From the NCBI GenBank assembly GCA_951813605.1, contig OX638379.1, forward strand, positions 1,870,471 through 1,934,470: a stretch of DNA of 64,000 nucleotides. The letters run 5' to 3'. The DNA is from an uncultured Bryobacterales bacterium (lineage in GTDB: Bacteria; Acidobacteriota; Terriglobia; Bryobacterales; UBA6623). Below the pieces are notes generated by a model, which searched no databases, was not told where the DNA came from, and saw only the letters and a program-made list of their open reading frames with translations. Shown here in pieces: positions 11,472 through 24,907 of the stretch. Position 1 is the stretch's first letter; each line of letters starts with the position of its first letter. Position numbers and translations under genes: made by a program.

Positions 11472-12416
11472 CTAAGCCTTGGGGTGGGCGTCGTCGTACA
11501 CCTTCATCAAGTGTTTCATGGAAAGTTGCGTGTATCTCTGTGTTGTAGAAAGGCTTGCATGTCCGAGCAATTCCTGGATCGCTCGCAGGTCGGCGCCCTC
11601 AGCAAGCAAGTGTGTCGCGAAAGCGTGGCGAAGCGAGTGGGGGTGCAATGACGGATCACCGTTGAACGCTCTGGCGTATTTCTTCAGTATCAAGCCGACA
11701 CTGCGAGCCGTGAGACGCCGTATGGAACCGCCCCAGCGATGTATGAGCAGGGCGCGCACCTTCGGCGGCGGCTTCAGCTTGGCACGCACCGCCAAGAAGC
11801 GCTCCAAGGCCTCGCCCGCCTTGGCGCCGTACGGAACTTGGCGTTCCTTCCGTCCCTTGCCCCGGACGCTGATCCAGCGCTCGGCCAAATCGAAATCGTC
11901 GACATTCAATCCCACGAGCTCACTGACTCGCAAGCCGGTTGCGTACAGCAGCTCGAAGATGAGGCGGTCGCGGACCACCTTCTCCGGGAAGCGGTCTCGC
12001 CCATCTTTGTATTCCACTTCGTCAACAAGGCGATTGGTTTCCTCGGCTGTCATTACCGTCGGAAGCTTCTTGGGAATCTTCGGCGCGCTGACGCTGCGGG
12101 CGGGATTGCTCGGCAGCCCCTCCTCGCGCACGAGATAGTCAAAGAAAGCCCGCAAGGCCGAGAGCCGCCGCGCTAGCGTGGCCTGCGTCAGGCCGCGCTG
12201 GCTGCCTTCCGCCATGAACTCGCGGATCGTCAGGCGCGTGATCTCGTCGAATCGGGCCTCGCGATCAGCACCCCGGGCAAGGTGGTCGGCGAACAGGGCC
12301 AAGTCCTTTCCGTAATTCCGGACGGTGTTCCGGGACGCATTCCGGACACGCAGGAAGTCCAGGAACCGCTTCGCCGCCGTGGCAAAGCTTCGTTCAGGCT
12401 GCCGCTCGGTCGACAT
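11472..12416 (-). CDS. xerC: Tyrosine recombinase XerC/XerD
   Basis: A 314-aa site-specific tyrosine recombinase of the Xer type, which resolves chromosome dimers at dif together with FtsK and, usually, a partner Xer. The N-terminal core-binding domain covers residues 10-105. Catalytic residues are visible: Arg163 (ATGLRVSEL), Lys187 (RGKGRK), His260 and Arg263 (PHSLRHAFATHLL), His286 (LGHASL) and Tyr295 (TQRYTQ). The start overlaps the end of trmFO by 23 bases, so the two are co-transcribed, the same pairing as gid-codV in Firmicutes. XerC and XerD cannot be separated with certainty from one copy. The symbol rests on the trmFO context. No dif-like site was identified. Confidence 0.9.
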   Translation of the reverse strand: MSTERQPERSFATAAKRFLDFLRVRNASRNTVRNYGKDLALFADHLARGADREARFDEITRLTIREFMAEGSQRGLTQATLARRLSALRAFFDYLVREEGLPSNPARSVSAPKIPKKLPTVMTAEETNRLVDEVEYKDGRDRFPEKVVRDRLIFELLYATGLRVSELVGLNVDDFDLAERWISVRGKGRKERQVPYGAKAGEALERFLAVRAKLKPPPKVRALLIHRWGGSIRRLTARSVGLILKKYARAFNGDPSLHPHSLRHAFATHLLAEGADLRAIQELLGHASLSTTQRYTQLSMKHLMKVYDDAHPKA

Positions 12417-14517: not shown

Positions 14518-15303
14518 TCACTGCACCCAAGGGCCCTTGCCCTTTTCGCGATCCTTCATGTAAACCTCGAATTTTCGCCGCGCTTGCCGCAGGCGCCATT
14601 GGCGCAGGCGCGCCTCGATGTTCCACGAGGGAAGGCTCGGCAGGCCGGCCCGTCGCCGGACAAAGTAGTAGCCGAGGGCCATTCCCGCCAGGTGGACGGT
14701 GAAAGCCGTTCCCGTGGGATTTCCCCCGCGGGCAAGGTCCTGAACGGCTCCCAAGAGGTTGATGGCTCCGTAGGCCACGGCCAAGACCCACGCAGGAACG
14801 GGCAGAATGAATGAAATGAGGATTGGCGTGTTGGGGTACTTCACCGCAAATGCCGTGACCACTGCCAAGACAGCTCCGGAGGCTCCCACAGTTGCGACCG
14901 AGCCCGAACCCGTCAGCATTCGAACCGCAACGTCCACAATGCCTGCACCTGCCCCGCAGATGAAATAGAAATGCATGAACCGGCGGCTTCCCCAATCGCG
15001 GGCAAGCGTACCTCCAAACATCCAAAGCGCGAACAGGTTAAGCAGAACATGCCAAATCCCTCCAGGGTCGTGGAGAAACATGTAGCTAAGGGGCTGCCAG
15101 AGTGCTCCACTCAGAAAGCTCGACGGCGTCAGGCTAAGCCAACGGAAGAGTAGGACAAGCGGGCCGAAACCCGCTACGAAAGCCATTGCGAAGAAGAACC
15201 AGGCGATCGCATTCGCCCACAAGAGCTTTTTCAGAGCCCGGGGAGTCCGCGGCAGCATCCCGAAGCCGGAGGACATGCCGGGGCGCTGGTATACATAACG
15301 CAT
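14518..15303 (-). CDS. Rhomboid-family intramembrane serine protease
   Basis: A 261-aa membrane protein with about six hydrophobic segments. Catalytic Ser142 is in VGASGAV and His204 in FTVHLAGMALGY. His85 and Asn89 (WHVLLNLFALWMFGG) are the usual conserved residues of the second membrane helix. It is likely to cleave membrane-anchored substrates in the inner membrane. A basic C-terminal tail of ~45 residues (EARLRQWRLRQARRKFEVYMKD region) lies in the cytoplasm. Substrates are unknown. Confidence 0.92.
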   Translation of the reverse strand: MRYVYQRPGMSSGFGMLPRTPRALKKLLWANAIAWFFFAMAFVAGFGPLVLLFRWLSLTPSSFLSGALWQPLSYMFLHDPGGIWHVLLNLFALWMFGGTLARDWGSRRFMHFYFICGAGAGIVDVAVRMLTGSGSVATVGASGAVLAVVTAFAVKYPNTPILISFILPVPAWVLAVAYGAINLLGAVQDLARGGNPTGTAFTVHLAGMALGYYFVRRRAGLPSLPSWNIEARLRQWRLRQARRKFEVYMKDREKGKGPWVQ

Positions 15304-15606
15304 CTTCTCTTCTTGAGTCTATCTGACCCACGAACTCGCAGCTGTGGTCTGTTCAATTCCCCACGGTCAATGGAAACAAGCGATCGACCAGCGCCCGACT
15401 CAGCCCGCGAGCGAGTAGTTGTCCAACTCGAGTGGCACAAGCAGCGGTCCGACGACCGGGAAGGAGCGCACGAGGGAATCGAAGCCGCACGGCTACGCGA
15501 TGCCGCCGACAAGAACCGCTAGGTATTCGCGAACAACGCGGTCAATGCCCTGGACCTGCTCTATGGCGAGGTCGCCTTCGAATGGCAAGGCAGCGCCAGA
15601 ACCGAG
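15304..15606. other. Intergenic, no assigned feature
   Basis: About 300 bases between the rhomboid start and the tctA 3' end. A short plus-strand stretch near 15520-15600 could be read as coding but is interrupted by a stop and not recognisable. Nothing else is seen. Confidence 0.35.
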
Positions 15607-17109
15607 CTAGGCGCCGGTGGCACGCTCACTGAGTTCCTGCGCAAAACCGCGGCCCAGCATCGTCACAACGAGCAACGCCAGCATTGCCAGAGCCGCCGGT
15701 CGTTCCAGCAGGTAGGTCCACTGCCCGCCACTGATCTGATACAGGTGAATGGTCGCTTCCTCGGCCATGCCGCCGAGCAGAATGCCGACGACTGCAGCAG
15801 CGACCGAGTACTCGAAGCGCTTGAAAAGCCAGCCAACTGCAGAGAACGCCATGACCGTCAGCGGCCCTGACAGATCTCCCGTCAGCCCAAAGGCGCCGAA
15901 CACAGCCATGGCGAGGACAGTGGGAGCCAAGTAGTCCATGGGAATTTTCACGACGTTGGCGAGCAACGGCACAAGGACCAAGCCCAGCCCGATCAACAGG
16001 ATCGCCTGGCCTAGATTGGCGAGGATGATCGCGTAGACCACCTCGGTTTCTTCCCGAAGGAACTGCGGCCCGCCGGTGATGTTGTGCATCGCGAACGCGG
16101 CCAGCATCACAGCTGTCGCACCGCCGCCTGGAATTCCTAAAGCAAGGAGGGTGGCGAGAGATCCCGCTTCCTAAGTGCTGTTCGCGGATTCGGAAGCGAC
16201 GATTCCGGCGGGGTCACCCTTCCCGAACGAGTCCGGGTCCGGCTGCGTTCTCTTTGCCTCGACATAGGAAAGCAGGTTCGCGATCGACGAGCCGACGCCC
16301 GGCAGGGCTCCGACGAACACCCCGATCAAACAGCCGCGCACCAATACCAACGGGTACGCAACGACAAGTCGGAAGCCTGCCAACGTGGCCCGCATGCTGA
16401 CGCGTCGCCCGGCATCGTCTGCCACGACGTAACGGCGGTTCGCGAGGCGGAAGAGCTCGGAGGCGGCGAACAGGCCGAGCATGGCGGGAACGACCGGGAC
16501 CCCGCCAGTCAGGTAAACGCTGCCGAACGTGCCGCGCGGGACGCCGGCCTCGCCGTAACCGATCGTGCCAACGAGTAATCCGAACAATCCGGAGAGCGTT
16601 CCCTTGAGCAACCTAGCCCCCGCTCGAGCGCCAATCAACGTGATTCCCCAAAAGACCACGACGGCCATCTCGGCGGGGCCGACACGCAGCACGAGTTGCG
16701 AGATGGGCATGATGAGCAAGAGCAGAATGCTGTAACCGATCATCACGCCGATGCAGGAAGACGCCAACGCAATGCCGAGGGCGGTGTTCTGCTGCCCGCT
16801 CTGGGCCATCGGAAAGCCGTCGAAGGCTGTCGCAACGGACGACGCCGTGCCCGGAATGTTCATGAGGACCGCCGGGATGCTGCTACCAAACGCACCTCCG
16901 GTGAAGATCGCGGTGAGAAAGAGCATCGCCTGCATGAAGTCCATGTACAGCGTCATCGGCAGGAAGACCGCCATTGCTGTCGAGATCTGCAGCCCCGGTA
17001 TGGCCCCGAACACCAAGCCGACCAGAATGCCCGGTATCACGACGAGCCACGGCGTCAGGTCGACGAGAAGCAATTCGAGGCCGGCCCCGAGCGCAGCAAC
17101 ATCGAACAT
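15607..17109 (-). pseudogene. tctA: Tripartite tricarboxylate transporter large permease TctA, interrupted by an in-frame amber codon
   Basis: Read through one TAG codon at 16171-16173, this is a normal-length ~500-residue TctA. It starts MFDVAALGAGLELLL, contains IPGILVGLVFGAIPGLQ and VLMNIPGTASSVATAFDGFPMA, and has the second signature LALGIPGGGATAVMLA after the stop. The frame is the same on both sides, so this is a nonsense substitution and not an indel. It lies between ...SESANST and EAGSLATLL, at a variable position of the family loop. Without read-through, the protein ends at 312 residues and loses about a third of its membrane segments. Sequencing error, pseudogenisation and suppression are all possible. 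The neighbouring tctC also appears damaged, which favours decay of the locus. Confidence 0.85.
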
Positions 17110-17168
17110 GGCGTCCCGCCTTACGCACCCGCAGGGAAAATCAGCAGCGGCATCCGGTATGGCAGCAT

Positions 17169-17588
17169 TTAGGAAAAGAACGCCGACAGCAGCGCGGCCA
17201 CGGCCAGCCCGTACGCTAGCGCCCAGTGCCAGCGGCGCTGTCCAAAGAAACGCAGGTGCAGAGTGATGAAGGCGCACGTGCCAACGTCGAAGCCCCGCCA
17301 GTTGAGCGACAAGACATAGCCAGCGAACAGTCCGACCAGCGGCGCGGCGTTCTTGGCCGGCTGGGCACGCACGACAGGGCTCGATCTTCCCGCGATGTGC
17401 GAGGCGCACTCCAATGCGCAAAGGACGAGCGCGACTCCCGCGACCGGAAGGACGAAAATCAGGTTCGACCAGTGCGTGGACGCACCAATTGCATCGTGTG
17501 CGTACCAGGCGACTAGAGCTGCCAGTGTCAGCAGCAAAGCGAGATCCGCCGCGCGGCTTGTGGATAGACGCGTCCGCGGCGTACCCAT
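17169..17588 (-). CDS. tctB: Tripartite tricarboxylate transporter small permease TctB
   Basis: A 139-aa protein with four hydrophobic segments in the TctB arrangement: an N-terminal helix around residues 15-28, a second around 42-60, then FAGYVLSLNWRGFDVGTCAFI near 88-108 and a terminal helix. It would form the inner-membrane complex with TctA. It lies between tctC (4-base gap upstream) and tctA (59-base gap downstream) on the same strand. The gene itself looks intact, but its partners are not, so the complex is probably non-functional. Confidence 0.85.
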   Translation of the reverse strand: MGTPRTRLSTSRAADLALLLTLAALVAWYAHDAIGASTHWSNLIFVLPVAGVALVLCALECASHIAGRSSPVVRAQPAKNAAPLVGLFAGYVLSLNWRGFDVGTCAFITLHLRFFGQRRWHWALAYGLAVAALLSAFFS

Positions 17589-17592
17589 CAGA

Positions 17593-18438
17593 TCACCAGT
17601 TCGAGAGGTGCGAGTAGTTTTCGAATATCGCGAATGTAGTCGTCATTGTGCGTTTGGACCGCTCCGGTCCGATCCACCGCCGCCCGATGCCGGCACGATC
17701 GAGCGGCTGTTGAAGCTCTTTGTCCTGGAGCACCCTAGCTAGGGCCCTCGCCAGCAGCTGAAACCGCCGAGGATAGACACGCTTGACGTTTCTGCTGGTG
17801 GCAAATCCGCGGATCGAGCCCGGCAGCACCGGCGCTTCGAGACCCAGAGGATCCAGCGCTTCGTTCAGAGTGGGCACATCCCAGCCCTCGTTGCGACGGT
17901 CGCTGACGATGGCCAGCGGCTCGATGTAGTCGCGTATCCCCTCCGAGCCGCGTGCGCTTATCACAATGAAATCGACGACGCCTCCGGCCACGGCGGCGCG
18001 CACCTGACCGCCGCTGTTGTAAGTCACCAGGTTTAGGTTGTCCCTCGGAATGCCGTTGACCTCTAGCAGGAGATTTGCCATCAGATGCCCTGCCGAGCCC
18101 CGCACGACCGAGGCGCGCACGGTCTTGGGCTTGTTGCGGATCGCTACAAGCAGAGCCGCGAGGCCTGAGTACTTCGAGCGCTTGCTGAGGGCAATAAGAT
18201 CCTCATCGAACCACTGCAAGTTCAGATAGGCAAAGCTTTCGATCGTGTAGGACGCTTGGCCTCCCAGTATTGTGTTGGACAAGTTCGGCGAGAAGGCGGA
18301 TGCAAAGATTGTGTACCCGTCTTCCGGGCGGTCGAGAACGTAGTTGGCCGCCAGCAGCGTGCCAGCCCCCTGCCGGTTGATCACCTGAACGGGCTGGCCA
18401 AGTTCGGCAGCAAGGTAGCCGGACATCGCCCGGGCCAT
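17593..18438 (-). pseudogene. tctC: TctC/Bug-family solute-binding protein lacking its 5' end
   Basis: 281 codons from the first ATG show a Bug-type periplasmic binding protein. Visible blocks are LGQPVQVINRQGAGTLLAANYVL, EDGYTIFASAFSPNLSN, the YNSGGQVRAAVAGGVVDF segment and a closing set of helices. The signal peptide and first beta strand (the usual PSKPI...PGGG...D block) are missing. In frame, similarity extends back only to a few residues before the ATG (ADRMARAM) and a TAG stop lies nine codons upstream. No other frame restores the missing part before the divergent serine-hydrolase gene. Without a signal peptide it would not reach the periplasm. The C-terminal ~30 residues also diverge. 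This is most likely a 5'-truncated remnant. Confidence 0.75.
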
Positions 18439-18592
18439 CCGGTCTGCCCAGAATTTTGCTTGCTAATAGCGCGCTCGCGCGGGCTGTCATGAAACCAAAA
18501 GGGACTGGCGGGCCTTTGTTCCCGGCTAGCAGCAGAAGCGGGGGGGCGTGAACTAGTCAACTCGGCTGCGATGCCCTCGGATACCATTAGTC

Positions 18593-19873
18593 ATGCCCAA
18601 GACCAAACTCCGCGTCCTAGTGCTCGCCTGGTGCCTCGTCGCGGTACTGAGCGGATTCTGCCTAGCGGAGGCGCAAGACCTCGCACCTGCAGTTCCTGAA
18701 TCTGTTGCGGTTTCTTCTGACCGTCTCGAACGCCTTGACTCGGTGCTGCAGCAGTACGTTAGCGACAAGCGCCTGGCTGGCGTCGTCGCCCTAGTCGCTC
18801 GACATGGCCGAGTCGTTTATAAGGAAGCCTTCGGAATGCGTGACATCGAGTCGAGCGAGCCGATGCGGAAGGACTCCATCTTTCGAATCGCTTCTCAGAC
18901 CAAGGCGCTCGCCAGCGTAGCGGTCATGGCGCTGCAAGAGCAGGGCAAGCTCCTGATCGCCGACCCTCTATCTAAGTATCTTCCGGAATTCAAGACGACG
19001 ACCGTGGCTATCGAGAAAGACGAAGGCGAATACGACGTCGTGCCGGGGCGCCGCCCGATCACTCTCCGGCACCTGCTGACCCACACCGCGGGCATCGGTT
19101 ATGGCAACGGTCCGGCCAAGGACCGCTGGGCTGAAGCTGGTATCCAAGGCTGGTACTTTGCTAACCGCAGCGAGCCGGTGAATCATACGGTGGCCAGGAT
19201 GGCGGAGCTGCCGTTTGACGCGCACCCGGGCGAACGCTGGGTTTATGGCTACAACACGGACATCTTGGGCGCTGTGGTCGAGCGAGCCAGCGGCCAGAAG
19301 TTGGACGAGTTTGTCCGGGAGACGATTCTCGAGCCGCTGGGGATGCGCGACACCCACTTCTACCTTCCCCCGAGCAAGGCTGACCGGCTGGCGACGGTCT
19401 ATTCCGCCACTGAGGATGGCATCGAGCGCGCCCCGGACCCGGGCCTTGGCGTCGGTCAAGGCCACTACGTCAAAGGCCCGCGCGTCAGCTTCTCAGGCGG
19501 AGCCGGTCTGCTCTCAACGGCTGAAGACTACGCGCGATTCCTGCAGATGATGCTGAACGGCGGCACGCTGGACGGACACCGCATTCTGAGCCGAAAGAGT
19601 GTCGAACTGATGACTGTGGACCACCTTCAGGGGATCGAATTCAACCCCGGACAGGGCTTTGGCCTGGGGTTTTCGATCGTCACCGATGTCGGCGCCCGGG
19701 GAGTGCCGGGCACCGTTGGGGAGTTCGGTTGGGGCGGCGCCTATCATTCGACTTACTGGGCGGACCCGCAGGAAGGAATCGTTGTGGTCTATTTCACCCA
19801 GCTGCTCCCCGCGGGCGGGCTCGATGACCACGCAAAGCTCCGGGCGCTCGTCTACCAAGCGCTTATGGACTAG
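18593..19873 (+). CDS. Secreted serine hydrolase, beta-lactamase class C family
   Basis: A 426-aa protein with a signal peptide (residues 1-27, ending AEAQ) and a penicillin-binding-like hydrolase domain. The SxxK nucleophile motif is Ser101-Gln-Thr-Lys104. The YxN motif is YGYNTD near residue 220. A GWGGAYHS segment near 378 takes the place of the KTG box. The [13 protein letters not shown] region is typical of esterase or peptidase members of this family. Whether it is an esterase, a D-amino-acid peptidase or a lactamase cannot be read from sequence; esterase-like activity is the commonest in such secreted members. It is divergent from the damaged tctC. Confidence 0.92.
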
Positions 19874-19940
19874 GCCTGCCGCTAGCGAAGCAGTGCGGCC
19901 GGGCTACAATTCACTCTCTGATTTGCCTCCACCTCCAAAG

Positions 19941-20408
19941 ATGTACTCCGCATTGGCCGCAATATCACTCCTATCCGACAAGAACTCCGCTATGGGCGAC
20001 GGCCAAGTCGCCTCCGGGGCAGTCGAGGAGGTGAAAGCGACTTGCCAAGAGCCTCTTTTTCTCGGGGCTGGCATCGACCACCCGCGCATGCCCCCGTGCA
20101 TCCCGAAATTCCATTCCGATAGGCACAGGCTTGAACAGATCCAGCCGACGACAACGATACGGAATGATCTCGACGAGCCCGGACCGCTGCGTTACGCTCC
20201 GAGTCAGCGGGTCCATCAGTGGATGCCCGAGGCTAGCAAGTGGCGCCAGGGCTTCGAAGAACATTTGCCACGCGTCAGCATTGCCGACGCCATGGGGCGT
20301 CGGCTGCTCGAGGCGCCGGACCCCATTGGACGCGCGGGCCGAGCCATCTTCGTACTGCTTTCCGACCACGGGTTCCATCTCGGCGAAACGGGCCAGTGGC
20401 CGCTGCGG
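19941..20408 (+). pseudogene. Sulfatase middle fragment (decayed)
   Basis: One open frame holds the middle part of an iduronate-sulfatase-like protein without its N- and C-termini. It runs from SAMGDGQVASGAVEE through EPLFLGAGIDHPRMP and a diverged LEQIQPTTTIRNDLDEPG. It ends with VSIADAMGRRLLEA and the strongly conserved FVLLSDHGFHLGETGQW. The CxPSR active site is absent, and similarity stops right after the DHG block. The same blocks occur in intact form in the sulfatase at 43758-45176 (DGQVSRWAVRQL, PFFLAVGIYRPHDP, ILFSDHGYHIGEKQK). A C-terminal sulfatase fragment lies 3 kb away on the other strand at 23562-23843. Confidence 0.75.
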
Positions 20409-20649
20409 CCGTTATGCAGACGATGGCGAAGAGCCCCACGGCCATTGCAAAGACTCTCAAGAGTGGTGCAGTCTAGCCTCGTGTCCCGACCCCGCGGAGC
20501 TCAAGAAACAGCGGTCAGCGATGCTGCCGGAGGTCACTCTGAAGCCGCTTGGCCCTCCCGCAAGGAGAGGCAGTCGAGGTGGTCGAGCGTCGCAGTCTGC
20601 GAGATAAAACTAGCAGAGAACCCTTTGGACTGAAAGGAGAACCTTTGAA

Positions 20650-22050
20650 ATGACCATTGCCCTCGTCCGTCTAGCCCCACTCGTCTGCGGCATTGCACTT
20701 GCCACCTCGCCCCTACCCGCCCAGCGCGGAGAAAGCGGGCAAAGGTCTCGCTTGGATCCCACGGTCACCGACTTCGCCTATGGCAGCCATGAGAGGCAGG
20801 TGCTGGATTTTTACCAGGCAGACTCTTCCGTGCTGACGCCTTTGGTCCTTTACATCCACGGAGGCGGTTTCACAAGGGGCGACAAGAATTCTGTCGATCA
20901 AGAAACCCTTCAGCAGCTCCTGGCCGCCCGTATCTCCGTCGCCGCGATCAACTACCGCCTGGCCGGGCAAGTGCCGCTGCCGGCAGCCCATCATGACGCG
21001 CAGCGAGCGCTGCAGACGTTGCGGTCAAAGGCGAACGAGTGGAATTTCGACAAGACCAAGGTGGGCGCGTTCGGCGGATCCGCCGGCGCCCAGCTGTGCA
21101 TGTGGTTGGCATACCAAGATGACCAAGCGGATCCGTCAAGCAGCGATCCCATCGCGCGCGAGTCGACTAGGCTGGCCTATGTAGCGCCGCTTCGCGGACA
21201 GATCACGAATGACTTCGATTGGTGGCTGAAAAACCTTCCGGGTTACGACGAGATCCATCGCGACCCGGCAGAAATCTTCGGCACCAGCGACCCCGCCAAG
21301 AAATCCGCCATCGTCGAGACGATCTCGGTGATTTCGCTTGTGTCGGCTGACGATCCTCCCACGTTCATGAGCTACCGCATGGCTCCGGGTGATCCTGTTC
21401 CCGAAGGCGACAGTGCGACATCGTGGAAAGTCCACCACGTGACATTCGGGCTGGCGCTCAAGAAGCGGCTTGACGCTGTCGGCGTAGAGAATCACCTGCA
21501 CTATCCGGGTGCGGATTCGACGCACGCATCGGCGGCCGACTTCTTCATTCACAAGTTCGGCAAGTCGGATGTCCTGCATCTGACGGCGAAGGCTCTTTTG
21601 GACCATCACCTGAAGCTCGTCGGGCTGCTTGAGCAAAATCCGAACCAGACCGGCGAAGTCTATCGCCAAGGCGTTTCGGGCGGAGTTGGCGGCTGGACGC
21701 CCTTGCCGGAGTCCCAAGACCGCAACCACTACATGTCCATCGTGCATCGCGGGGGCAATAGCTGGGCGGAATCCCATGACCAGAAGGCGGATTTCTACAT
21801 CATGCTCGAGGGTTCCGGCACGCTCCTGCTTGGCGGCAAGATGGTGGGTGCCATCCAGGCCGATGGCCGACCCGGCGAGTGGAGGGCACCGCGAATCAAG
21901 GGCCCCCGGCGCATTGAAGCGCGCAAGGGCGATTTGATCAACATTCCCGTAAAGACGCCTCACCAATGGGATCTCACCGAGGGGGAGTCGGTGACTTATG
22001 TGATCCTGAAGGTGGTCAAGCGGGACGAGGAGATTCGCGAAGATCCCTAG
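20650..22050 (+). CDS. Secreted alpha/beta-hydrolase (esterase) fused to a cupin-like domain
   Basis: A 466-aa protein with a signal peptide ending near residue 24. An alpha/beta-hydrolase domain follows, with oxyanion-hole HGGG (residues 70-73), nucleophile elbow GGSAG with Ser144, and a likely late His in the DSTHASAADF block. This resembles the BD-FAE/carboxylesterase type. From about residue 340 a second domain has cupin features: HYMSIVHRGG, DFYIMLEGSGTLLLGG and a C-terminal TPHQWDLTEGESVTYVILKV. A good ribosome-binding site (AAAGGAG) lies 10 bases before the ATG. The fusion is unusual; an ester-containing sugar or lactone substrate is a guess. Confidence 0.85.
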   Translation: MTIALVRLAPLVCGIALATSPLPAQRGESGQRSRLDPTVTDFAYGSHERQVLDFYQADSSVLTPLVLYIHGGGFTRGDKNSVDQETLQQLLAARISVAAINYRLAGQVPLPAAHHDAQRALQTLRSKANEWNFDKTKVGAFGGSAGAQLCMWLAYQDDQADPSSSDPIARESTRLAYVAPLRGQITNDFDWWLKNLPGYDEIHRDPAEIFGTSDPAKKSAIVETISVISLVSADDPPTFMSYRMAPGDPVPEGDSATSWKVHHVTFGLALKKRLDAVGVENHLHYPGADSTHASAADFFIHKFGKSDVLHLTAKALLDHHLKLVGLLEQNPNQTGEVYRQGVSGGVGGWTPLPESQDRNHYMSIVHRGGNSWAESHDQKADFYIMLEGSGTLLLGGKMVGAIQADGRPGEWRAPRIKGPRRIEARKGDLINIPVKTPHQWDLTEGESVTYVILKVVKRDEEIREDP

Positions 22051-22184
22051 CCACGCGACCAGGGGAGGCCGTTTCGACTGGCCGACAGATAGAACAAACG
22101 AATCTTGAAGGTCGATCTCCTCGAAAAGGTCTTCGGGGACGTGAACTGGAACCGACGCCGACGCGCAAGTCTATCTGCGCCTAG

Positions 22185-22283
22185 GACATCGCCGTCAATT
22201 CGCATGGGAACATCTATGTCGCGGAGATCCAGAACTGGCGTGCCGGGAAGTTCGTCAAGCTGCAGCAGCGGGACCCATCATGA
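22185..22283 (+). pseudogene. C-terminal remnant of an NHL-repeat beta-propeller gene
   Basis: A 32-codon stretch reads DIAVNSHGNIYVAEIQNW followed by RAGKFVKLQQRDPS and a stop. This is the typical last blade of NHL-type propellers. A TAG codon directly precedes it and no other blades are visible upstream. Its TGA overlaps the ATG of the next gene (ATGA at 22280-22283), which suggests the lost gene was once translationally coupled to the MBL-fold gene. Confidence 0.6.
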
Positions 22284-23254
22284 GTACTAATTCTTCGGCA
22301 TGGCGACTTGCCGCGGTCTGGTTTTGCGTGCTGTGCGCCGGACTGGCGGCACCCGAAGCCTCCGATGCGCAGTCCCTCCGGGTCACTCTGCTGGGTACTG
22401 GGACTCCGAATCCACACCCGGAGAGATTCGGTCCCGCAACTCTGGTCGAAGCGGACTCTCAGCGGCTGCTGTTCGACGTAGGGCGAGGCGCCACGATTCG
22501 CCTGAACCAACTCGGTATTTCCATGCGCGAGGTTTCAGCGGTATTTATCACGCATTTCCACTCCGATCACCTAGTCGGCCTCGCAGACTTGTGGCTCATC
22601 GGCTGGTTGCCGCCGAACTACGGCCGTCGCCAAAAGCCGCTTCGCATTTGGGGACCAGCCGGCTTGCGCCGGATCACGTCGGGCATGGAGCAAGCGTATG
22701 CGACGGACATCGAGATCCGAGTCAAGGACGAGGGTTTGTCGCTGTCGGCCGCCAAGTTCGACGTGACGGAGTTCAGCGAGGACGGAGTGATCTATGAGCA
22801 AGACGGCGTTGCCGTGACCGCGTTCGAGGTCAATCACGGCGAGTTGATCAAGCCGGCCTACGGCTATCGCGTTGATTACGCTGGGCGTTCCGTCGTGATC
22901 TCAGGCGATACCCGGTACGACCAGAACCTGATCGAAGTTGCCAAGGGAGCGGACCTACTTGTACACGAAGTCGTGGCAATTCCTGAGAAACTCTTCGAGG
23001 TCAACCCGGCGATGAAGCGGGTCGAGGCGCATCACACCACCGCCGAAGAGGTTGGCGCTGTATTTTCCAAAGCCCAGCCGAGGCTGGGAGTTTTAACTCA
23101 CTACGTTTTGACGGCGGGTCCCGGAATACCCCCCGTGACGAAGGATGAAGTCCTTGCGCGCGTCAAATCCAACTACTCCGGTCCCGTCGTCGCGGGACGG
23201 GACTTGATGACCATCGATGTTGGAGACTCCGTCGCTGTTGCGGACGAGAGATAA
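22280..23254 (+). CDS. Secreted MBL-fold metallohydrolase (RNase Z-like fold)
   Basis: A 324-aa protein with a signal peptide (residues 1-31) and a metallo-beta-lactamase domain. The HxHxDH metal site is THFHSDHL (His92, His94, Asp96, His97). Further ligands are in FEVNHGE, ISGDTRYDQN and VEAHHTTAEE, and a late His in VLTHYVL. The layout (LLGTGTPNPHPERFGPATLV at the start) fits the RNase Z / arylsulfatase AtsA-like branch. Export argues against tRNA processing; a phosphodiester, sulfate ester or lactone substrate in the periplasm is more likely. The start codon overlaps the stop of the upstream NHL remnant. Confidence 0.9.
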   Translation: MSTNSSAWRLAAVWFCVLCAGLAAPEASDAQSLRVTLLGTGTPNPHPERFGPATLVEADSQRLLFDVGRGATIRLNQLGISMREVSAVFITHFHSDHLVGLADLWLIGWLPPNYGRRQKPLRIWGPAGLRRITSGMEQAYATDIEIRVKDEGLSLSAAKFDVTEFSEDGVIYEQDGVAVTAFEVNHGELIKPAYGYRVDYAGRSVVISGDTRYDQNLIEVAKGADLLVHEVVAIPEKLFEVNPAMKRVEAHHTTAEEVGAVFSKAQPRLGVLTHYVLTAGPGIPPVTKDEVLARVKSNYSGPVVAGRDLMTIDVGDSVAVADER

Positions 23255-23561
23255 CCTGCCTGCGAGACAATCCGCATAGCAAATCCAGCGGAGGAGCGAG
23301 AGCGATCCTGATCGGTCCGCAAGGCCGGTGACTTCATCCGGATGATCGCGCTGGAGCCGCAAGCCCCTGCTCTGAGTGTTGGCCGTCAGGCGACTGCTGT
23401 TGCTTCGGATCAAGGAATCGTTCGTTTCGGATTCTTGTGGGGAGATCTTCGCCCGCCGAGATGCGTGAGGGGACGCCCGGCACGACCACGCTGCTCGCCC
23501 TGAAGATTCTGTTGTGCCCAGCGAGTATCACCTGATCGAACCGGGGACGATATCGATCAAT

Positions 23562-23843
23562 CTATCCAGTCGGCGGCCCATTCCATGCTGGCATTCCTTC
23601 GGCAAGAGGGATAGACGTCCCTAGGTGCGGGCTTGCCGCTCGCGGCGGGTCGCCGAACTCGGCCAAACGCTCCATGAACTGATCGTTCAGCGGCTTCACC
23701 TGGCTTGCGGTTGCAGGCTCTGCTGCACTGTTGCGCAGCTGTCCGGGGTTCTCACGCAGATCTTAGACCCATTGCTCCGGCCGAGTTCTGAATAAGACCG
23801 GCCTCCAGGCCTGGGAGGCAACTCGGGGTTGTTCGTGAAGCAT
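23562..23843 (-). pseudogene. Sulfatase C-terminal fragment (decayed)
   Basis: Ninety-three codons with one internal TAA read as the end of a sulfatase. VASQAWRPVLFRTRPEQWV is followed by the stop and then DLRENPGQLRNSAAEPA, matching the family's conserved 'YDLRxDPGQLxNLA' block, and QFMERLAEFGDPP. The internal stop stands where Tyr is expected, a one-base change. Nothing of the catalytic N-terminal domain lies upstream; the next gene begins 15 bases away. Together with the middle fragment at 19941-20408 on the other strand it may derive from a single gene broken by rearrangement. Confidence 0.65.
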
Positions 23844-23857
23844 GCCCGGAATTCCCG

Positions 23858-24907
23858 TCACAGGTCTCCGTTTGCAACGGACCACGCGATGTCCGCCGTC
23901 GAAGCGACCTCCCGTCCTAGTTCCAAGGCGCTGGCGGAGCTAGCGTTGCCATCCAACCCGCGCTTGTAGACGCCTTGGCCGATAGCAGCGGACCGAAACA
24001 TCGAAAACGACAGATAGAAGTTCCAGTGCTTCATTGCATCACGCCCGCTAAGACTGCAATAAAACGAGAGTTGAGATTCCCACGAGGGTATTCCTGTCAC
24101 GGCGGGGTCGTTGCCGAGAAGAGTCGGATTGCGCCGGCTGGGCAGGTAGTAGGTCATTAGGTTGTAGGCGAGGTCGGCCAGCGGATCCCCCAAGGTGGAT
24201 AGTTCCCAATCGAGAACCGCCACGATGCGGGGTTCGCTAGGGTGCAGAATCACATTGCCGAGGCGATAGTCTCCGTGGACTAGCCGAGTCTCTTCCTCGT
24301 CCGGTATGTTGTCCGGAAGCCATTCGACGAGCCTGTCCATCGAGACAATCCCTTGCGTCTCGGATGCCTTGTACTGCCGGGACCATCGGCTGATCTGGCG
24401 AGCGTAGTAGTTGCCCGGTTTGCCGAATCCGTCAAGACCCACATCACTGGGTGCCACTCGGTGCAGCGCTGCCAGCACTCTCATGTTGTGCTCGTACACT
24501 GCGGTCCGGTCGAAAGCATCCATTCCAGGCAGCGTGGGATCGTGGAAGACCCTTCCCTCCACGTGCTCCATCACGATGAAGGGCGTGCCGATGATGCTGC
24601 TGTCTTCGCACAACAGGAGCATCGAGCAGACCGGCACATCGGTGTTGGAGAGAGCGTCCATCACGCGATACTCGCGCTCGACAGCGTGAGCGGACGGCAG
24701 CAGGCGCCCCGGCGGCTTCTTCCGCACCACATAGTTCCCGCCGCCGCTCTCAAACAAGAACGTCGGATTGGACTGTCCGCCTTCGAATTGGCAGATAGAG
24801 CAAGGTTCTCTGAAATCGGACAGCTTTGCCGTGAGATAAGCCTTCAATGCCCCTTCGTCGAAGCGGTGCGCCTCGCGGACGGGAGTCGTGATGGGTCGCG
24901 AATGCAT
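23858..24907 (-). CDS. Aminoglycoside-phosphotransferase-like kinase (ACAD10/11-type)
   Basis: A 349-aa protein of the APH-like kinase superfamily, close to the phosphotransferases that accompany acyl-CoA dehydrogenases. It has a glycine-rich segment FEGGQSNPTF (near 42-51) and VVRKKPPGRLLPSAHAVERE with the ATP-contacting Lys. The catalytic HGDYRLGNVIL (near 214) and the metal-binding VLDWELSTLGDPLADLA follow. Such enzymes are thought to phosphorylate a 4-hydroxy-acyl-CoA or similar hydroxylated compound before dehydrogenation. A short-chain dehydrogenase lies nearby in the opposite direction (25915). No signal peptide, so cytosolic. Confidence 0.88.
   Translation of the reverse strand: MHSRPITTPVREAHRFDEGALKAYLTAKLSDFREPCSICQFEGGQSNPTFLFESGGGNYVVRKKPPGRLLPSAHAVEREYRVMDALSNTDVPVCSMLLLCEDSSIIGTPFIVMEHVEGRVFHDPTLPGMDAFDRTAVYEHNMRVLAALHRVAPSDVGLDGFGKPGNYYARQISRWSRQYKASETQGIVSMDRLVEWLPDNIPDEEETRLVHGDYRLGNVILHPSEPRIVAVLDWELSTLGDPLADLAYNLMTYYLPSRRNPTLLGNDPAVTGIPSWESQLSFYCSLSGRDAMKHWNFYLSFSMFRSAAIGQGVYKRGLDGNASSASALELGREVASTADIAWSVANGDL

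Follow-up and report, generated by a model that had tools for sequence, protein, structure and literature searches.

The in-frame TAG codon found in a tctA gene of an uncultured Bryobacterales bacterium is very probably one lesion of a recently decaying, horizontally acquired tctCBA operon, and is most simply read as ordinary gene decay, not as a new reading of the genetic code. The operon lies on the minus strand of the window (the 64,000-nucleotide stretch of contig OX638379.1 analysed here), inside a segment of about 8.5 kb flanked by a rhomboid-protease gene and an APH-like gene. The operon carries several inactivating lesions, and each of its three genes is damaged: tctC by a 5′ truncation, tctB by a premature TAA and tctA by the TAG. 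A sequence-only reading of this DNA had considered a young pseudogene, a sequencing error and a suppressed or recoded TAG as explanations of the interruption; the first of these gains support from the presence of lesions in three adjacent genes, two of them different stop codons.

The tctA pseudogene (15607-17109, minus strand) would encode the large membrane subunit of a tripartite tricarboxylate transporter. Its frame runs from an ATG at 17107-17109 to its own TAG terminator at 15607-15609, spanning 501 codons including that terminator, and contains stops solely at codons 313 and 501, the former being the in-frame TAG at 16171-16173. The PF01970 profile matched this frame with 379.9 bits over profile positions 2-422 of 423, spanning the stop with the one TAG inside. 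A search of NCBIfam returned no family for TctC or TctA. In the alignments shown for ten relatives the similarity extended as one piece across the stop (478-556 columns, 63-73% identity), and on this comparison the homology across the stop is judged to be far beyond chance. The interruption with TctA on both sides, which the sequence-only reading had reported, was therefore confirmed, as was the LGIPGGGATAV signature that it had placed in the same frame downstream of the TAG. It had also proposed a comparison with close relatives. Of 78 relative loci found, three partial ones were dropped, and in all 75 remaining full-length TctA sequences the column occupied by the TAG holds a serine.

TctA keeps 215 of 235 near-invariant residues. 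Its 20 differences are the highest count among 76 sequences; nonetheless, an uninterrupted divergent relative (L136) comes close, differing at 17 of 237 such columns, and many of the changes in the window sequence are conservative. Given this degree of preservation, relaxed selection on tctA is not demonstrated by the substitutions. Because so many near-invariant residues are retained, the decay of the operon looks recent, and tctA was probably under selection until a short time ago. With the TAG at codon 313 of 501, the gene as it stands does not specify the full-length TctA of a functional TctABC system; ribosomes would be expected to halt at codon 313, so that 312 of the 500 residues of the permease would be released as a fragment.

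In the relatives, tctC, tctB and tctA follow each other consecutively, and the same tctC-tctB-tctA order is found in the window. The locus therefore resembles known TctABC systems (PF03401, PF07331 and PF01970) in its gene order and in its Pfam matches, which lie above the cut-off for all three subunits, but differs from them in that each gene is damaged. The tctB pseudogene (17121-17588, minus strand), whose product type is the small membrane subunit, gave 32.9 bits with PF07331 over the portion preceding the premature stop and was aligned with 76 relatives. Its natural stop is the TAA at 17121-17123; beyond the premature in-frame TAA at 17169-17171 (minus strand), MLPYRMPLLIFP can be read as a tail that relatives conserve. 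Since 75 of the 76 relatives extend at least 10 residues past the column of the premature stop, a full-length TctB is not encoded either. No frameshift was found in tctA or tctB. The 5′-truncated tctC (17593-18447, minus strand), corresponding to the periplasmic binding protein, matched PF03401 only over positions 2-162 of 274 (36.2 bits), and its homology to relatives begins at about 18447, in the stretch ADRMARAMS. It has neither a signal peptide nor the conserved beginning of the mature protein, and several stops stand in the upstream frame. When the missing start was sought across the window, 75 N-terminal queries produced 300 HSPs, of which 75 fell at the place of tctC; the other 225 were weak and were taken as chance, the best of them (E 1e-4, with composition correction off) lying within the rhomboid gene, and the idea that the tctC start had moved to another place in the window was accordingly rejected. 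The binding protein would not be exportable as such, and the transporter would presumably be dead even if the TAG in tctA were read through. The description of tctA as otherwise intact in the sequence-only reading, which gave no strand (it is the minus strand), thus holds for tctA taken alone and fails for the operon, in which tctB has its TAA and tctC has lost its 5′ end.

The distribution of TctA suggests a foreign origin. No close tctA was detected in 17 other genomes of the family, where full-length matches were only 30-32% identical; these genomes are 74-99% complete and include some incomplete drafts, making the absence less than absolute. An intact tctA paralogue in the organism's own genome (C1:5224934-5226325) belongs to the same 30-32% identity class. 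When 396 genomes of the phylum were drawn, 38 had any TctA match, own genome included, and none of the matches listed outside this locus exceeded 35% identity. The absence from close relatives covers the 17 family genomes and six genus members. By comparison, 78 TctA relatives with 52-75% identity in the best segment were found in named genomes of other groups, the nearest full-length one being about 71% identical. We take these relatives to belong mainly to the Gammaproteobacteria (Halomonas, Vreelandella, Billgrantia, Vibrio and others), and some presumably to Opitutales and to Sulfurospirillum- or Arcobacter-like genomes. A search of plasmids with TctA returned 811 records, the best row reaching 65.9% (Vibrio pelagius), with no match covering 80% of a query that includes about 100 non-coding codons. 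On this distribution in the family, in the phylum, at the genus locus and in relatives elsewhere, we infer that the tct operon was acquired by horizontal transfer. A foreign base composition was not seen in tctA, tctB or tctC, whose GC content by codon position is like that of neighbouring genes, and this native-like composition does not support a very recent arrival of the operon.

The segment that carries the operon (15330-23865, approximate borders, unstranded) was not present between the rhomboid and APH-like genes of six genus members. Both flanking genes were readable in these six of ten genus members, the stretches of the other four (G001, G003, G006 and G010) being too short to tell. 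In four of the six (G002, G004, G007 and G008) the homologue of window 23.86-24.94 kb lies within about 60-75 bases after the rhomboid gene; in the remaining two (G005 and G009) the flanking genes stand about 3 kb apart, and the different DNA between them has no blastn match to window 8-26 kb. The rhomboid/APH-like interval is a variable site, occupied by the segment here and lacking it in those six genus members. The operon would have arrived by horizontal transfer in this segment, after which selection on it would have been lost. Flanking repeats of an insertion were limited to short imperfect ones, none of them at the segment borders. The region 3′ of tctA (about 15292-15640, in one plus-strand frame only) and the segment's esterase and metallo-lactamase-like proteins had no match in the relatives' loci examined. 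The segment also carries a serine hydrolase (PF00144) with 72-77% homologues in genus members, which in nine of the ten lie on contigs other than that of the rhomboid gene. Some 1.5 kb past tctC, with the serine hydrolase and esterase genes on either side, the remnant of a truncated sulfatase (19986-20438 on the plus strand, as delimited by the best blastp match) was recognized by blastp to the own-genome sulfatase L226 (152 columns, 29% identity, E 3e-17). It also matched an iduronate-2-sulfatase (E 2e-5) and, far below the cut-off of 433.45, the choline-sulfatase model TIGR03417 (E 3e-5, 23.1 bits); no Pfam match was obtained.

Decoding of the TAG as a sense codon, through a suppressor tRNA, pyrrolysine machinery or partial reassignment, would yield a full-length TctA, and is compatible with the in-frame continuation of tctA homology beyond the stop. 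The components that such decoding would call for were sought in the genome, a single contig of 6.19 Mb that is 98.61% complete. None of the 45 tRNAs, found with the Rfam model and each typed by ARAGORN, has a CTA, TCA or TTA anticodon (CUA, UCA, UUA in the tRNA), and the suppressor and pyrrolysine tRNA genes whose possible presence the sequence-only reading had brought up did not come to light. No PylS match exceeded the TIGR02367 cut-off of 178.15, the best two reaching 29.1 and 21.2 bits, and this model also matches 13 of 14 control genomes, one of them above the cut-off. Release factor 1 is present (496 bits). Avoidance of TAG as a terminator, as would accompany reassignment, was not observed: TAG ends tctA itself and, apart from the tctA fragment, 12 of 36 gene-like ORFs (at least 200 codons, within the window), among them ORF 11472-12416, which we take to be xerC-like. 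Calculated from the codon usage of the window, one-step nonsense changes would give TAG in 52-55% of cases, TGA in 22-28% and TAA in 19-24%, so that an amber codon is the stop most readily supplied by mutation. A TAG decoder, moreover, could cure neither the tctB TAA nor the tctC truncation. Pyrrolysine or suppressor decoding was rejected on the tRNA, PylS and RF1 results, and we regard amino acid decoding of this TAG in any of its forms as very improbable, with the sulfatase TAGs described below keeping a slight opening for it. Nor did the 120 nucleotides 3′ of the tctA TAG suggest a readthrough structure, as they fold no better than shuffled sequences (z 0.74; 157 of the 200 shuffles were equally or more stable).

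An error of sequencing or assembly behind the TAG, with tctA itself intact, would agree with the open remainder of the tctA frame, and this is the least improbable of the alternatives to decay, though still unlikely. It would have to account not only for the TAG but also for a second nonsense codon, that of tctB, and for the lost start of tctC; the single, nearly complete contig also argues against it, as does the lack of the frameshifts that would be expected of long-read errors, if long reads were the method used. Separate translation of two TctA chains that together form a working permease draws on the open and conserved state of both parts, and is the least credible of these readings. In the ORF downstream of the TAG no start codon (ATG, GTG or TTG) occurs before 16110, 20 codons on, and a restart there would skip 17 columns that do not vary among 75 relatives and that take in most of LGIPGGGATA. 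A split permease was rejected on this ground; tctC as it stands would in any case supply no exported binding protein. Decay of an acquired operon, in comparison, accounts for the lesions of all three genes together, and what appeared to be a recoding candidate is settled as most likely ordinary decay.

The scan for in-frame stops elsewhere in the genome, which the sequence-only reading had suggested for TAG, covered few families (TctA, TctC, PF00005 and PF00884) and brought to light two full-length sulfatases with a TAG and one apparently broken ATPase fragment. Among 41 PF00005 matches, one has internal stops, a TGA and a TAG in an ABC-transporter ATPase fragment (L199, C1:5731938-5732294); this gene is apparently broken and would be another pseudogene. 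The sulfatases (PF00884) gave at least 151 matches, 150 of 250 first-look candidates having been scored. Two of them, otherwise full-length, carry one TAG each (L209, C1:2094012-2094980; L210, C1:275235-276323), in both cases in the variable loop after the SDNG motif and with homology on both sides when aligned with 18 other sulfatases of the same genome. No TGA or TAA interruptions occurred among the sulfatase matches listed. Because these two full-length genes carry a TAG, TAG interruptions are not confined to the tct operon, which counts against a reading by decay alone, and from their alignment the sulfatase TAGs would count somewhat in favour of readthrough. Low-level readthrough of some genic TAGs, in tctA and the two sulfatases, by near-cognate decoding for example and with no dedicated tRNA, would let these genes keep some function while TAG stays a regular terminator; we give it only a slim chance, a little below that of an error and above that of dedicated decoding. 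Over tctA, tctB, the two sulfatases and the ATPase fragment, the in-frame stops met are TAG four times and TAA and TGA once each. With TAG expected from 52-55% of one-step nonsense changes, this mix is about what mutation supplies, in a sample that is small and uneven. As an observation apart, the sulfatase family is very large for a genome of 6.19 Mb, with 100 further first-look candidates beyond those scored.

The decaying tct operon fits the picture drawn in PMC2275313 and PMC2916853, in which acquired genes come and go and young pseudogenes are rapidly removed. It is like the pseudogenes of acquired bacterial genes treated there in its absence from close relatives, in having its nearest relatives in other groups and in its few lesions, which make it probably young; there is no difference in kind, the present case involving a whole operon and more than one lesion type. 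Among the titles listed in literature searches, none concerns this particular operon. Belinky and colleagues (PMC7918605) argue for possible readthrough of in-frame stops that species have in common where dN/dS is below 1, and find that such stops tend to last only short evolutionary times. The tctA TAG is like those cases in lying within an otherwise conserved gene; unlike the orthologous stops described there, in at least two species with dN/dS under 1, it has no stop-sharing relative among those found, and its neighbours are broken. The case teaches that neighbouring genes and the mutational supply of stop codons should be checked before TAG readthrough is proposed, and a young foreign operon hit in every gene is a modest example of the gain and loss of uptake genes.

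In-frame stops were also encountered in other genomes. Distant TctA matches in other members of the phylum were listed with a TAG (G331:C14:21059-22516 and G156:C11:7189-8661), a TGA (G068:C38:11279-13027) or a TGA and a TAA (G188:C137:11395-12960), and these stops may stem from the ends of the alignments or from the query's non-coding head. Among the rhomboid matches, rows with a TGA or TAG also occurred in other genomes. Four rows in which a genus relative has an in-frame TAG in a second rhomboid copy were discarded as candidates; in the three inspected, the TAG is the C-terminal end of the protein.
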